DNA of 64,000 nucleotides from Methylobacterium sp. C25 (lineage in GTDB: Bacteria; Pseudomonadota; Alphaproteobacteria; Rhizobiales; Beijerinckiaceae): assembly GCF_021352225.1 (NCBI RefSeq), contig NZ_JAAUVI010000001.1, positions 62,001 to 126,000 of the forward strand, written 5' to 3'. Every line of letters starts with the position of its first letter. Within the stretch, counting starts at the first letter, position 1. The notes beneath the pieces are model-generated. The model had not been told where the DNA came from. It worked only from the letters and a program-made list of their open reading frames with translations, and searched no databases. Both the position numbers and the translations under genes were made by a program. Below, one piece after another: positions 36,964 to 43,895 of the stretch.

Positions 36964-39654
36964 TCAGGCGCTGAGCGCTTGCGGCGGCGGAAACAGCATC
37001 TCGACGAGTGTGCCCTCGTTCTTGCGGCTGGAGATCCGGAAACGCCCGCGATTTGCCTCCACCAGCGCCTTGGTCACCGTCAGCCCGAGCCCCATCCCGG
37101 CGCGTCCGCCCGCAATGTCGCCAACGCCCTGCGCCATCAGCGCCCGCTCGATCTCCTCCTGCGTCATACCGATGCCGGTATCGCGGACCCGGAAAGCGAT
37201 CTCGCCGCGCTCGTCGGTCGTCGAGACGATCACCTGGCCGCCGGCCTCGGTCAGGCGGATGGCGTTGGCGATGACGTTGAGAGTGGCCTGACGCATGGAG
37301 CGCTCATCGGCGACGAGCGGCCGGAGATCGGGCGAAAGGCTCGTCCTCACGACGATGCGGTCGCGCGCCGCCTGCGGCTGCATCAGGGCGATGCAGCCCG
37401 ACACCACGTCATTGAGTGCGATGTCGGTGAATTTCAGTCCGCCCTGCCCTGCCTCGATGCGTGAGAGATCGAAAAGGTCGTCGATCACACCGACGACATG
37501 CTGGCTGGATTGGTAGATCTCCTGAAGATAGTCGTTTCCGCGCCCGCTCCCGAGCGGTCCGATACTCTCGGAGAGAAGGATCTCGGTGCGGTCGGCAATC
37601 TGGACGATCGGCGCACGGATCTGATGCGATAGGATCGCGGCGAAGTCTGCCCGGAAGCGCGCCTCCGGTCCGACGCGCAGTGTGCTCGACCCTGGCGAGG
37701 GTGGCTTGCTCAAGGTCACACAGAACCGGGCGTTGCTCTCCGCTGGAAGCGGAGCGACGCGCAGGTGAAGGACGCCATTCTGCGGGTCCGTACGTGCGGT
37801 CGCTTCGCAGGTTGCTCCGGTGCCGGACTCTCGCGCCTCGTCCAGGCACGCGGCGATGGCCGGCTCGCTGTCGCCCGTGAACAAATCCGCGAGTCGGCCG
37901 CCGACGACTTCGCGCGGCTCGCTCGACAGCATGCTGCGCGCGCCGGCATTCAATCGGAGGACACGGCCGCTCTCGTCGAGCGAGGCTACGCCCAACTCGA
38001 TCTGGTCAAGGAGATCCTGAGCGTCGCGCTCGCGTGCCGCGTCGCGCGCTTGCAGCAGGCCGCGCGCGATGTGTTCGCGGGCGCTGTCGGCCTGAGCTGC
38101 GACGCGGGCCAGCAACAATTCGGCCGAGCTGCCATCCCAATCGACCCGCGAGCGCTCGACGAGCAGCGACAGCGGCAGACCGCCCGCCCTCGTCATCGAG
38201 ACCGGCGTGTCGGGGAGGATGCCATCCTTCAAAGGCGGCAACTCGCCGAGAAGTTTGCCAACGCCCTCGGCGGCCTGCAGCGCATCACGGTCCGGATGTC
38301 CGGTGAGATCGAGGAACCTGCCATTCGCGTAAAGGATCGCGGTTCCGCGATGCACCAGAACGCCGACCGGCAGCCGATCGAGCGCGGCGACGATTGCCTC
38401 ATCGATGGATGAGATCGCACTCGGCGGTGCAGCGACTGGGAAGGCCGTAACCGAGCCGCTGCGCCCCGAGCCTTGTGGCGGCTCGGTTGGCGAGGCGTCG
38501 TCGTCGCCCGCGAAGCGCGCGCCGAGCGCGCGCGCGATCTCGCGAAATGCCGCGTGCTCGTTCGTCGAAAGATCCGAATTCTTCTGCGCCGGCGCGCGAT
38601 CCTCACTGATCTCCTCAGCCGCGGCGGAAAGCACGGCTGCATCGGTGTGATCGCTGGGCGCGTCGGCCGTGGCAACGGCATCCGCCACGTCCGGGGCGGG
38701 ATATTCAGCGGTCAGCGGCGCCGATGGTCCTGTTTGCGCCTCGTCGGCGGCCGGACACGCCAGAGCCTCGTCTCGGCCGTCGACGGAGGGTGGCAGCGCC
38801 AGTTCGCCCGCGATCATATCCCCCGCGGTTCCCTCCTGCAGCGGGGCCGCTTCGGCCAGCGAGGACCGCGCCTCGCGCACGACACCGAACCCCGAAAAAC
38901 CGGAAAACGGCTGCGATGCGCGTCCGGATGGCGTTCCGGACAGGTCGATTGCGATCTCGCGATCGGTCCCTGGCGGACGGAGGATGACGGAAAGCGCTCG
39001 GAAGGTCCGATGGGCCGTCAGCGCCTCGAACAGGCTAGCCCCGAGGACGGTTCCGGCTTCGCCGAGCTTTGTCCAGCCGTGGCCGAGGAGATGCGCGGCG
39101 ATCTCGGATGAGGCGCCTGAAAGATCCGTGACAACGTGATGTTCGTCGCTGCGCCAGACGAACCGCTTCGAAGCCGACGCTGGAGCTTCCGGTTCCGAAG
39201 CAACGACCGGAGACGGCGCCACCTCGATCGTCGGGCGCTCGCCGGTACTGCGACGTGCCGGCACTGCCTCGGTGGATGCGAGAAGCAGCAGGGGACCGTT
39301 CGTCTCGCTCGTGACCGACGCGATCAAGCACGTGACCGGCCGCCCCAGGCCTCGCGTATCGAGGCGAAGTCGAACGAGGCGCGGGCCCGTATCCGACGCG
39401 CCGACGGATCGGATTTGATGCGGAAGCCTCAGCCCGGGATCGACGCGGTTGGCCTCGCGCGTGATCGCGCCGCGCAAAGCCGCAGCGTCGCCATGGGCAC
39501 CGATCACGCTTTCGGCGGCTCGATCGAGAACGAGAACCGCGCGCTCACGCGCCGCGAAAATGGGGGCCAGCCGGGCATCGGCGGACCAGCGCGCGAAGTC
39601 GGCGGCAAGCGTCGCTTCGCCGCCATCGGCCTGCTTTGCGCGGTCGGACATCAA
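36964..39654 (-). CDS. PdhS/DivL-like PAS sensor histidine kinase with altered H-box
   Basis: Cytoplasmic-looking sensor kinase of 896 aa. The first 415 residues are acidic, Ala-rich and of no recognised fold. Two PAS-like segments follow at about 418-543 (LPVGVLVHRGTAILYANGRF) and 544-659 (LDQIELGVASLDESGRVLRL), then HisKA at about 660-730 and the ATPase domain (VIANAIRLTEAGGQ; RDTGIGM; GMGLGLTVTKAL). The kinase half resembles the cell-cycle PdhS/PleC/DivL group. The phosphoacceptor block reads SHQIRAP around H677, where active kinases have HExxT. No transmembrane helix. No response-regulator gene is adjacent. Confidence 0.85.
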   Translation of the reverse strand: MMSDRAKQADGGEATLAADFARWSADARLAPIFAARERAVLVLDRAAESVIGAHGDAAALRGAITREANRVDPGLRLPHQIRSVGASDTGPRLVRLRLDTRGLGRPVTCLIASVTSETNGPLLLLASTEAVPARRSTGERPTIEVAPSPVVASEPEAPASASKRFVWRSDEHHVVTDLSGASSEIAAHLLGHGWTKLGEAGTVLGASLFEALTAHRTFRALSVILRPPGTDREIAIDLSGTPSGRASQPFSGFSGFGVVREARSSLAEAAPLQEGTAGDMIAGELALPPSVDGRDEALACPAADEAQTGPSAPLTAEYPAPDVADAVATADAPSDHTDAAVLSAAAEEISEDRAPAQKNSDLSTNEHAAFREIARALGARFAGDDDASPTEPPQGSGRSGSVTAFPVAAPPSAISSIDEAIVAALDRLPVGVLVHRGTAILYANGRFLDLTGHPDRDALQAAEGVGKLLGELPPLKDGILPDTPVSMTRAGGLPLSLLVERSRVDWDGSSAELLLARVAAQADSAREHIARGLLQARDAARERDAQDLLDQIELGVASLDESGRVLRLNAGARSMLSSEPREVVGGRLADLFTGDSEPAIAACLDEARESGTGATCEATARTDPQNGVLHLRVAPLPAESNARFCVTLSKPPSPGSSTLRVGPEARFRADFAAILSHQIRAPIVQIADRTEILLSESIGPLGSGRGNDYLQEIYQSSQHVVGVIDDLFDLSRIEAGQGGLKFTDIALNDVVSGCIALMQPQAARDRIVVRTSLSPDLRPLVADERSMRQATLNVIANAIRLTEAGGQVIVSTTDERGEIAFRVRDTGIGMTQEEIERALMAQGVGDIAGGRAGMGLGLTVTKALVEANRGRFRISSRKNEGTLVEMLFPPPQALSA

Positions 39655-40956: not shown

Positions 40957-41619
40957 TCAGTTCAGGACGACGACCTTGGCGCCGACTCTGACGCGCTCGT
41001 AGAGATCGGTGACGTCGTCGTTCGTCATACGGATGCAGCCCGAGGAAACAGCTTGGCCAATCGTATCCGGCTCGTTGGAGCCGTGGATGCGATATTCGGT
41101 GCCTCCGATATACATGGCGCGGGCACCGAGCGGGTTCTCGACGCCGCCGGCCATGTAGCGCGGCAGATCGGGACGACGGGCCAGCATCGCCTTCGGCGGC
41201 ACCCATGACGGCCATTCCTTCTTGGCGACGACCTTCTTCACGCCCGACCACTCGAAGCCGGGACGGCCGACGCCGACGCCGTAGCGGATGGCTTCGCCGG
41301 GCGAGGTCACGAAGTAGAGACGGCGCTCGGAGGTCGACACCACGATCGTCCCGACCGGGTAGCGCGAGTCGAACCTCACCATCTCGCGCGGGATCGGGGC
41401 GACCTGGGCCTGCGGCGCGGCCTGGACGCCCTGGCCACCGCCGTACTGGCCGCCATACGGATCATATTGCTGGGCTCCGGAGCGACCGTAAGTCTGACCG
41501 GAATAGTAATCGTCAGCGTCATTCGTCCCGAACGGGTCGTAGGGCGCAGACATCGCAGGAGCGGTCGCGAGAACACAGACGCCGATGACGCCAGCGAGCG
41601 CGGTAGCCAGAGTCTTCAT
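40957..41619 (-). CDS. L,D-transpeptidase (YkuD), third copy in the window
   Basis: Secreted L,D-transpeptidase of 220 aa from the ATG at 41619. A signal peptide (ATALAGVIGVCVLATAPAMS) is followed by a Tyr/Gly/Gln-rich linker (about residues 30-75, QQYDPYGGQYGGGQG). The YkuD domain has STSERRLYFVTSPGEAIRYG, the HGSNEP His and SSGCIRM catalytic Cys. It differs clearly from the tandem pair at 24-25 kb, having the linker and a KEWPSWVPPKAML insertion typical of the ErfK group. Confidence 0.93.
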   Translation of the reverse strand: MKTLATALAGVIGVCVLATAPAMSAPYDPFGTNDADDYYSGQTYGRSGAQQYDPYGGQYGGGQGVQAAPQAQVAPIPREMVRFDSRYPVGTIVVSTSERRLYFVTSPGEAIRYGVGVGRPGFEWSGVKKVVAKKEWPSWVPPKAMLARRPDLPRYMAGGVENPLGARAMYIGGTEYRIHGSNEPDTIGQAVSSGCIRMTNDDVTDLYERVRVGAKVVVLN

Positions 41620-41792
41620 GAGAGGAAGCCTACCTGTGCATTTATCTTGACTGTACAAGCGTGACCGTGGCCACGCGGTTCCACGCTTGTTCGACGATTT
41701 TGTGCATAACGCCGTGCGCATCCAAACGAGGCTTAACGCCAGTCTTCAACGATGCGTTCGACTTGATCGGCGTTCGGGCTGACGAGGCTTCG

Positions 41793-42401
41793 TCAGGCGA
41801 CGGCCGGGGGTGGCAGCCGGGTGGCGCGGCCGGCCTCGACGAGCACGTCGAGCGCGCGCCAGGGCTTGGGGATGAAGACCGCCCGGTCAGGGATCTCGGT
41901 CCGGCGTTCCGGCGCCACACCCGAGGTGATGACGAGCCGTGTCTTCGGCCACAGGGTCGCGACGGCATTGGCGAGTTGGATGCCATCCATCTGGCCCGCG
42001 AGGCTGATGTCGGCAAAGACCAGCGCGATGTCTCCACCGGCCTCGCGCAGGACGTTGAGAGCCTTCTCGGCACTGTCGCAACCGACAACCGACAGTTCGG
42101 TCTCGTCGAGAAGCGTTTCCGCCAGGCCGCGCACGTCCGGATCGTCCTCCACCACGAGGGCCATCCGGCCGCATTTGGGTGGAGCGTCGAGGTCGGCGTG
42201 CTTCACCTGCCGGACGAGGGCGGCGAGGTGTTCGGGAATCCCTTCCGAGACGAGCGCGTCGTAGGCTGAGGCGAGCGCCTGGCCGATCTGGTCGAGCGGC
42301 ATGCCGGGCAGAAGCGGATCGAGCGTGTGACTGCGGCCGGCCTTCGGGCTCGATCCATCGAGCATCGTTGGGTTCGGCTTCTGCACGCGCTTTCCTTTCA
42401 T
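41793..42401 (-). CDS. Receiver-domain protein with N-terminal NepR-like segment
   Basis: Protein of 202 aa. Residues 36-67 (LDQIGQALASAYDALVSEGI and PEHLAALVRQV) follow the pattern of the anti-sigma factor NepR: IG-x3-L..YD-x2-V-x4-VP-x3-x2-LL. A receiver domain covers 79-192, with the acidic pocket E85-D86-D87, phosphoacceptor D131, S160 and K179 all present. No output domain follows. NepR blocks the general-stress sigma factor EcfG and is removed by phosphorylated PhyR; a NepR-like helix tied to a receiver suggests a phospho-controlled anti-sigma or decoy. Start uncertain: the GTG at residue 6 has a better AAAGGA site. Confidence 0.75.
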   Translation of the reverse strand: MKGKRVQKPNPTMLDGSSPKAGRSHTLDPLLPGMPLDQIGQALASAYDALVSEGIPEHLAALVRQVKHADLDAPPKCGRMALVVEDDPDVRGLAETLLDETELSVVGCDSAEKALNVLREAGGDIALVFADISLAGQMDGIQLANAVATLWPKTRLVITSGVAPERRTEIPDRAVFIPKPWRALDVLVEAGRATRLPPPAVA

Positions 42402-42500: not shown

Positions 42501-43649
42501 CTATTGGCCCGCTGCATCCGCGTAGGCCATCACGCCGGCCATCGACGTCACGTCGCGATAGCGGTCGCCGCGGGCACTCATCATCGCCTCGAACTTCTCG
42601 TGGACCTGGGCGACGGAGAGGCTCGGCACCTTCTTGGCGTGGCGTCCGCGGCCGGTGCGGCCGGCATGGGCGGCGAAGAAGATCGAGCGGTTGGCGCGGG
42701 CCGGGCCGGGCAGAAGCGCGGCGGCGGCCGCATCCGGCTTGTCGACGACCTTGGAGAGGAAGCTCTCGGCGTCGTTCGGGCCGAGGAAGTGGGCGAGGTA
42801 GATCTCGCCGAGCGACAGGTCGCGACCGATGGTCTGGGCGATGCGCGCGGAGTCGCGCTTCAGCATCTCGCCAGCCATGAGGGCCGAAAGGTAGGGATCG
42901 CGGCGCAGTTCGAGCACACGGTTGCGGTCGGCCTGGTTGACGATCACCGGCTTGTCGTTGGCGTCGTTCGTGACCAGCGCGGCCTCCTGGGCAAGCCCGT
43001 ATTTGGCGCCGAAATCGCGGATCACGCCGAGCCAGGTCCGCTCGATGAACTGATACAGGCCGGTGGCCGAGGAGGTCTTGGCCTGCACGGCGGTGATGAA
43101 GCTCGATTCCTTGTCGGCGATCGCCATCAGCAGGACGGGATCGGTCTCGACCGCCTGCGCCGCCTTGACGATCGTCTGGACGATGTGGCGCCGGATCTTC
43201 ATCGGCCCGAATTCGAGGATGTCGTTCGGATCGCCTGTGGCGGTCTGCGAGAGCAGGAAGTCATAGGAGACACGATCGACGCTGTTGCCACCGAGTTCGG
43301 TGTCGAGATCGTGGATCGGGGCGAAGCTCGATGCGGCGGTCAGCGTCACCTGCGGCTGCGGCTGGGGCGCCTCGGGGGCGAGCGCCTGCACGCGGGGCTT
43401 GGGCATCGCGAATTCGTGGCCGACCTTGGTGGAGGCCTCGGCGCGGCCGAATTCGGTGCCGGCATTGAGCAGGACGGCACCGAGGCCGCCTGCGACGAGC
43501 GTCATCGAGAGAACCGAACGGATCAGCGCTTTGCGGCTGCCGTGGTCGCGTCCAACCTTGTTCGAGAGAGCGATGACATCCTGCCGGGCGCCAGTACCAA
43601 AGCGGCGCGCGGGGGTCGTCGTCTGCGAACGGTTCGTACGGCCCTGCAT
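42501..43649 (-). CDS. Membrane-anchored lytic transglycosylase (SLT-like)
   Basis: Protein of 382 aa with an N-terminal basic cytoplasmic stretch, one hydrophobic anchor (IRSVLSMTLVAGGLGAVLL, about residues 43-61) and a periplasmic SLT-type lysozyme domain. The catalytic Glu is in MAIADKESSF, followed by SATGLYQFIERTWLGVI, the SLT motif. The domain continues with LSALMAGEMLKRDSARIAQT and YLAHFLGP. It would cleave peptidoglycan glycan strands. The frame is open upstream to 43865, but those residues are not protein-like. Confidence 0.88.
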   Translation of the reverse strand: MQGRTNRSQTTTPARRFGTGARQDVIALSNKVGRDHGSRKALIRSVLSMTLVAGGLGAVLLNAGTEFGRAEASTKVGHEFAMPKPRVQALAPEAPQPQPQVTLTAASSFAPIHDLDTELGGNSVDRVSYDFLLSQTATGDPNDILEFGPMKIRRHIVQTIVKAAQAVETDPVLLMAIADKESSFITAVQAKTSSATGLYQFIERTWLGVIRDFGAKYGLAQEAALVTNDANDKPVIVNQADRNRVLELRRDPYLSALMAGEMLKRDSARIAQTIGRDLSLGEIYLAHFLGPNDAESFLSKVVDKPDAAAAALLPGPARANRSIFFAAHAGRTGRGRHAKKVPSLSVAQVHEKFEAMMSARGDRYRDVTSMAGVMAYADAAGQ

Positions 43650-43895
43650 GGTCGGACGCTTGTCCCCTGGATTACCGCTCTTCACGGCCTGATTCGATGA
43701 CCAGAACTTTTCTTGACCGGTGTGGCGACAACACGGCTGCGCTTGTGGCAGACCTGGGGCAGTGCAGGGCAAATTCGCGGGCGCGGCCAGCCGCAAGGCC
43801 CCGCTTAGCGCGGGATGAGCGGACCACTGGCGAAGGTTTAGCGACGAGCGTTGCCGAACGGCCACGCTTTGTGGCGGTTTCGAGAGCCGGTCGGC

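Follow-up and report, generated by a model that had tools for sequence, protein, structure and literature searches.

A NepR-like segment joined to a receiver domain in Methylobacterium, a candidate control point on the general stress response

The 64-kb window, by which we mean the whole stretch of 64,000 nucleotides of Methylobacterium sp. C25 that was analysed, contains on its minus strand an open reading frame of 202 amino acids in which a short segment resembling the anti-sigma factor NepR precedes a receiver domain. This raises the question of whether the segment really is a relative of NepR and, if so, what a receiver attached to it could control. Early work on the general stress response made use of Methylobacterium extorquens. 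Even so, our literature search, which lacks most subscription papers, gave no description of the NepR-receiver protein that most genomes of the genus carry; an earlier note on this DNA, which named no strand, likewise knew of no example with this order. Judged by its sequence, the fusion may well be a point at which the general stress response is controlled and which has so far gone undescribed.

Gene, start and domain layout

The features of the gene are given in window coordinates; pN/pS is a Nei-Gojobori count made with our own script.

41793..42401, minus strand: whole coding sequence, 202 amino acids and stop (NepR-like segment, linker, receiver), from the translation, the Pfam NepR and Response_reg matches and the orthologue family
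42297..42401, minus strand: residues 1-35, variable N-terminal tail with an uncertain start (M1, V6 or M13); pN/pS 0.79 (30 orthologues)
42204..42296, minus strand: residues 36-66, NepR-like segment; PF18557 match, hhalign to NepRs 93.2%, pN/pS 0.19
42246..42296 and 42204..42230, minus strand: predicted helices 36-52 and 58-66; AlphaFold2, low confidence
42261..42275, minus strand: codons 43-47, with L43 (42273-42275) and Y47 (42261-42263), equivalents of Sphingomonas melonis NepR L32 and Y36 in the 2lfw_B alignment; A44 in place of R33
42165..42203, minus strand: residues 67-79, variable linker; mean pairwise identity 0.29, pN/pS 0.87
41817..42164, minus strand: residues 80-195, receiver domain; PF00072 E 1.1e-10, AlphaFold2 pLDDT 84-97, Foldseek
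42009..42011, minus strand: D131, expected phosphorylation site; D in 31/31 intact rows, G in 14/14 divergent-clade rows
41925..41927, minus strand: T159, expected switch threonine; T in 31/31 intact rows, A or V in 14/14 divergent-clade rows
41865..41867, minus strand: K179, conserved receiver lysine; K in 31/31 intact rows, deleted in 14/14 divergent-clade rows

The NepR-like segment, residues 36-66, is LDQIGQALASAYDALVSEGIPEHLAALVRQV. The true start codon upstream of it is uncertain from the sequence. At another locus (L011 1501-2106) an in-frame TGA directly follows the ATG found at the position of the window's start codon, so translation there must begin further downstream, and in many orthologues TTG or GTG are the sole nearby start options.

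The AlphaFold2 model of the protein (pTM 0.60) predicts two helices which coincide with the NepR-like segment. Averaged over ten-residue blocks, pLDDT is about 46-68 in these helices and 84-97 in the receiver (residues 81 to 190), and because of the low confidence in the helices their placement on the receiver is uninformative. A Foldseek fold search returned receivers as nearly all of the 50 matches listed, with no NepR among these 50. Against NCBIfam, residues 1-78 had no match, and the whole protein matched receiver-containing models only, among the 25 matches listed. The NCBIfam PhyR model aligned to residues 64-189 only, with 22.0 bits against a cut-off of 240; the sigma-like N-terminal domain of PhyR is absent from the protein, whose N-terminus is instead NepR-like.

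The NepR-like segment

Taken alone, the protein of the window gives a borderline match to the Pfam NepR family (PF18557, curated cut-off 25.7 bits). The whole protein scores 23.0 bits (E 6e-5), residues 1-78 score 24.9 bits, and in a six-frame search of the genome the locus reaches 25.8 bits, just above the cut-off. The earlier note had described NepR spacing in residues 36-67 and had named a PF18557 search of the N-terminus as its check. The spacing is present as described, in residues 36-66, and while the check came out marginal for the single protein, PF18557 is matched at E <= 0.01 in 30/30 aligned orthologues, the best at 3.7e-6. A profile-profile comparison (hhalign) of the segment with 25 true NepRs gave a probability of 93.2% and an E-value of 3e-7.

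Hidden Markov models of true NepRs, built from these 25 rows or from only the 8 rows outside the genus, scored 91/91 orthologue rows at 15.2-28.7 bits, all above every shuffle. The best shuffle reached 11.5 bits (about 5,400 reported of the 9,100 shuffles made); the 91 rows represent 81 distinct genes because some genes were entered twice with different ends. The 25-row model was also used to rank 2,149 six-frame ORFs, taken from the window and from 100 kb of a relative. The two fusion ORFs came first (20.6 and 18.2 bits), and the third, at 10.0 bits, was an ECF sigma factor extended at its N-terminus.

Searches of the PDB pointed the other way. With the single sequence, the 38 chains found at E <= 1 were matched via the receiver and included no NepR. 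With a profile of the segment, NepR (3t0y) appeared at E 0.17, behind an ATP-citrate synthase at 0.0014 that is matched over two short stretches only (domain E-values 2.8 and 28); the true-NepR profile itself found only four NepR sequences in the PDB.

Constraint on the protein is strongest in this same segment. Among 30 orthologues the mean pairwise identity is 0.82 in the segment, 0.75 in the receiver and 0.29 in the linker, and pN/pS is 0.19, 0.35 and 0.87, respectively. An ordinary single-domain response regulator with a helical leader that resembles NepR by chance is therefore highly improbable as an explanation. The score of the single protein below the Pfam cut-off, the shortness of the segment and the rank of ATP-citrate synthase above NepR would fit it, but all of the orthologue rows exceed every shuffle, the segment is the most constrained part of the protein, and the divergent orthologues described below match NepR in 14/14 cases and a receiver in 0/14. 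The shuffles, the family-wide scores and the constraint largely refute a chance match, and we rejected it. The NepR-like segment is real: at the level of sequence the family settles the matter, which for the single protein is marginal.

The comparison with a NepR of known structure bears on which residues were kept. In the alignment with 2lfw_B, NepR L32, R33, Y36 and M48 fall on L43, A44, Y47 and L59 of the fusion. We take 2lfw to be the S. melonis NepR; its letters at L32, R33, Y36 and M48 agree with the numbering of PMC6599016. L43, A44 and Y47 are invariant in 50/50 alignment rows, and in 45/45 rows of a set that includes the 14-genome clade. In S. melonis the L32A and Y36A changes are reported to weaken NepR while R33A still works, and in NepR2 the counterpart of M48 could be changed without effect (available text of PMC6599016). 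With L43 and Y47 invariant and an alanine at the R33 site, both residues important in the tested NepR are retained in the fusion, and the departure lies at a site where a change was tolerated. One further difference is a phenylalanine, invariant in the 25 true NepRs, which is a leucine in the fusion.

The receiver domain and a clade that lost its key residues

The receiver domain (PF00072, E 1.1e-10) is matched in 30/30 orthologues as well, and E85, D86, D131, T159 and K179 are present in all 31 intact rows. Position 87 varies among these rows (D in 20, E in 10, N in 1) and position 160 is S in 29 and T in 2. The switch residue we take to be T159 and not S160, as is usual for CheY-type receivers. 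The claim that a NepR-like segment lies in cis to an intact receiver is thus supported by the PF18557 and PF00072 matches of the 30 orthologues. As for the residues listed in the earlier note, E85, D86, D131 and K179 stand, whereas D87 is variable and S160 should give way to T159.

A group of 14 genomes departs from this pattern. In 14/14 of their orthologues E85 and D131 are replaced by G and K179 is deleted, and T159 has become A or V; position 86 stays acidic (D in 12, E in 2). The same 14 proteins all keep L43, Y47, G40, D48 and P56. With Pfam at E <= 0.01, NepR is matched in 14/14 (best E 4.8e-7) and Response_reg in 0/14, and the first member, with 28.9 bits, and G015, with 26.5 bits, exceed the PF18557 cut-off of 25.7 bits. 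The clade forms a single group with support of 100/100 beside G717, which has an intact receiver, in a tree that warns of long branches. Within the clade both halves are constrained, with pN/pS of 0.30 and 0.38.

Since the NepR segment outlives the key residues of the receiver, it looks like the output of the protein, as far as sequence conservation can indicate. The earlier note had given homologues in which only the receiver is conserved as grounds for its refutation; the opposite was found, the segment being the more conserved part and 14 genomes keeping it while losing the receiver residues. Its other proposal, a phosphorylation switch, cannot hold for the whole family, because this clade has no Asp at position 131. 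The simplest reading of the constraint within the clade is that the receiver-derived half is still needed there, in a way that would not involve phosphorylation. These 14 orthologues, which lack the phospho-acceptor, would offer a natural test of what phosphorylation adds.

The same clade bears on a positive role for the protein. SdrG and MrrA are, like the fusion, receivers without DNA-binding output in the same pathway class. To our knowledge neither carries a NepR segment, and the receiver of the fusion presumably does not show the FATGUY-type motif. It could be suggested that the helices dock on PhyR and aid its phosphorylation while the receiver exchanges phosphate with the same kinases, like a tethered SdrG or MrrA. 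The Pak-SdrG-PhyT-PhyR relay of S. melonis (PMC6599016) and MrrA in Caulobacter (PMC5964349) would provide precedents, and according to one proposal PhyR is not properly phosphorylated unless NepR is present (PMC8999054). The 14 orthologues without Asp131 nevertheless keep the NepR segment, and we consider such a cofactor quite unlikely.

Distribution

The architecture, whose survey the earlier note had suggested, is a regular feature of the genus. With the NepR segment as query the fusion was found in 104 of 111 genus genomes, one copy each; 90 copies were matched at E <= 1.3e-20 and 14 between 8.8e-13 and 1.7e-7. The seven genomes that gave no match are G728, G251, G729, G739, G036, G756 (95% complete) and G758 (70% complete), and for G728, G729, G739 and G036 only part of the candidates was scored. 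Six genus genomes of at least 93% completeness are among those with no copy detected.

Samples from outside the genus tell a different story. In 385 genomes of the class, where at most 18 candidates were scored per genome and weak cases could be missed, three matches reached E 1e-4, two of them in the genus and one in G071, where it coincides with a PF18557 match. Only the two genus genomes carry the fusion in this sample, and the idea that it is common outside the genus was rejected on this basis. Among the matches listed, 12 long-frame NepR matches in other genera are short NepRs with at most 36 residues after the core and no receiver. In 61 related genomes, the matches listed that reach the NepR segment are all in the genus. 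A scan of contigs with patterns from the receiver half gave 70 loci, of which 68 are labelled Methylobacterium or Methylorubrum and the other two belong to one Methylobacteriaceae MAG and one Beijerinckiaceae MAG. As the fusion was found only in the genus within these samples, it represents local wiring.

One match (NZ_LR743510.1 2807059-2807607, to residues 28-201 with 61.7% identity) lies on a 2.83 Mb record listed among Methylobacterium bullatum plasmids; either the gene is on that replicon or the record is misfiled. We also observed a possible second fused class, in which a receiver follows a weakly NepR-like N-terminus (L158 624-1208 in G036, L160 587-1168 in G011 and L159 576-1100 in G019); Pfam NepR gives 15.7 bits for one of these three proteins and no match for the other two. 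Another protein, L166 505-1056 in G026, has an N-terminus that is NepR-like by eye and a receiver that has lost the acidic pair.

Neighbourhood and promoter

The gene is flanked by two genes for proteins related to the cell wall.

42501..43865, minus strand: upstream neighbour, transglycosylase SLT-domain protein (PF01464); upstream on the same strand in 84/85 orthologue loci
40957..41721, minus strand: downstream neighbour, YkuD L,D-transpeptidase (PF03734); 62/85 loci, the other 23 including short stretches

The frequency of both neighbours indicates that the orthologues, those of the divergent clade included, sit at one place in the genome. Between the SLT and YkuD genes of G739 and G036, and it seems of G728 too, there is another small ORF and no fusion gene. 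Where no fusion was detected, the transglycosylase gene has a small ORF of similar sequence behind it (L184 and L185 2644-2907, L183, L182); the next gene is YkuD in L184 and L185 and, it seems, in L183.

An EcfG-type promoter was sought within 400 nt upstream. The published consensus (GAAC-N16,17-C/GGTT) occurs at only 1 of 70 loci and not in the window, and the stricter GGAAC pattern also occurs at 1 of 70, a different locus. Control of the fusion gene by EcfG was rejected for 69 of the 70 loci by the published consensus. With this scarcity of promoters, and with no phyR or ecfG beside the gene in the window, it is not an obvious member of the stress regulon. The best NepR of the same genome lies elsewhere (C33, 54.9 bits), and the gene beside it passes the NCBIfam PhyR cut-off, with 366.2 against 240 bits.

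This setting invites the view that a segment descended from NepR has been re-used, for receiver docking, for dimerisation or for a partner related to the cell wall, with the general stress response uninvolved. The constant place after the SLT gene (84/85) and before the L,D-transpeptidase gene (62/85), the weak PDB profile match to NepR and the 69 loci that have no EcfG-type promoter would agree with it. Adjoining cell-wall genes do not, however, equal function, and conservation falls on the positions of the NepR core, among them the two residues whose mutants have a phenotype; this would be unexpected for a re-used pair of helices. We regard re-use as decidedly unlikely.

About 2.1 kb downstream of the fusion gene, on the same strand, lies a gene for a PAS-type histidine kinase of 896 amino acids (36964-39654), and the same order was seen in 41 of 85 loci. 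It is a possible candidate for the kinase partner of the fusion.

Other arrangements of receivers and NepR-like sequences were observed as well. In the genome of the window (G000), L005 on C31 holds a receiver gene (651-1184) and, behind it, a NepR-like gene (1414-1623), each stand-alone. This receiver gene, a different one from that of the fusion, is present in 111/111 genus genomes, and in 43 of the 111 a stand-alone NepR-like gene follows it on the same strand within 1 kb.

Comparison with known systems and probable partner

The fusion shares with NepR (PF18557) the two-helix core IG..L...YD..V....P...L..L and the equivalents of L32 and Y36. It differs in having a receiver attached, in its position away from phyR and ecfG, in the alanine at the R33 site, in the leucine at the conserved F site and in the rarity of EcfG-type promoters, absent from 69/70 of its loci. 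In PhyR, as would be the case in the fusion, a receiver controls a partner-switch element in cis; PhyR has a sigma mimic and the fusion anti-sigma-like helices, so the topology is a mirror image.

Also comparable, as divergent NepR paralogues, are META1p1275, META1p2700 and META2p0735 of M. extorquens AM1 (PMC4814048), and likewise NepR2 of S. melonis. The main text of PMC4814048 has no instance of the word receiver. According to the available text of that paper, two of these three M. extorquens homologues pull down PhyR and one bound neither PhyR nor any EcfG, so that resemblance to NepR does not guarantee binding. Its authors suggested for these homologues an anti-anti-anti-sigma role through competition with NepR. 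NepR2 is reported to bind PhyR and to lower the response (PMC6599016). The N-terminus of Methylobacterium EcfG proteins is extended by a NepR-like piece (PMC4814048), which is another N-terminal fusion in the same genus, joined there to a sigma factor and here to a receiver; NepR-like pieces in fusions are hence not entirely new. In the genome of the window an ECF sigma factor with such an N-terminal NepR-like piece, like the published EcfG of M. extorquens, was observed at C1:636984 (L007).

The helices might alternatively bind one of several EcfG proteins directly, making the fusion an anti-sigma factor gated by phosphorylation, with the receiver deciding when. EcfG is the first partner of NepR itself, only two of the six EcfG paralogues in M. 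extorquens were seen to bind NepR (PMC4814048), and L43 and Y47 are kept. Against this, the available text of PMC4814048 reports that none of the three M. extorquens NepR homologues bound any EcfG in two-hybrid assays, and that of PMC6599016 gives indirect evidence that S. melonis NepR2 appeared not to bind EcfG. Moreover, EcfG1 of M. extorquens had to lack its N-terminal extension to bind NepR in vitro (PMC4814048), so that these sigma factors may already be blocked in cis; an extension of this kind is the one seen at L007. Direct binding of EcfG is in our judgement unlikely.

Binding to PhyR fits the comparisons better. By analogy with the M. extorquens homologues and NepR2, we suggest that the fusion is a NepR paralogue joined to a receiver and that PhyR is its most likely route for adjusting the general stress response, a reading that we put at about an even chance. 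In its favour are the NepR match across the family, the invariant L43 and Y47, the constraint on the segment and its survival in the 14-genome clade, and the recurring linkage of a receiver gene with a NepR-like gene. Against it stand the score of the single protein below the Pfam cut-off, the PDB searches, the leucine at the conserved F site, the position away from phyR and ecfG, the scarcity of EcfG-type promoters and the six largely complete genus genomes with no copy detected. On the sigma-like domain of PhyR, the two helices would occupy the groove that NepR uses. PhyR would thereby be drawn away from NepR, NepR would stay on EcfG and the response would be damped, as in an anti-anti-anti-sigma role. 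In most species a histidine kinase acting on D131 would set the availability of the helices, possibly via the linker, with phosphorylation either exposing or hiding them. For the 14-genome clade we picture the half derived from the receiver as a fixed scaffold, with binding that would either be constitutive or have some other gate.

More tentatively, and as something we think somewhat less likely to be true than not, the fusion may be a full mirror image of PhyR, in which the receiver controls NepR-like helices in cis and a kinase signal sets the sequestration of PhyR (or EcfG). Across most of Methylobacterium the general stress response would then receive a second two-component input that opposes the first, of which one clade would have frozen a phosphorylation-independent form. 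Binding to PhyR, if it occurs, would mean that another input with the opposite sign reaches the pathway by way of a receiver.

The gene number of META1p2700 of M. extorquens suggested a similar place, which led us to consider that the fusion might be this gene itself. A search of plasmids for the megaplasmid NepR homologue gave weak matches only. In AM1, kefB is META1_2712, at 2,838,079 (PMC4827201). The nearest PF00999 gene to the fusion, which was taken as kefB, lies at 39 kb in G018, 36 kb in G027, 65 kb in G005 and 303 kb in G016, and by the spacing in G018 and G027 the fusion would be expected around META1p2674-2678. A putative EcfG-type promoter is reported for META1p2700 (PMC4814048), of the kind that 69/70 fusion loci are without. 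From gene spacing and promoter content this identity seems unlikely. Between the fusion and the PF00999 gene of G018 there is one weak NepR match, which reads as an ECF sigma factor extended at its N-terminus.
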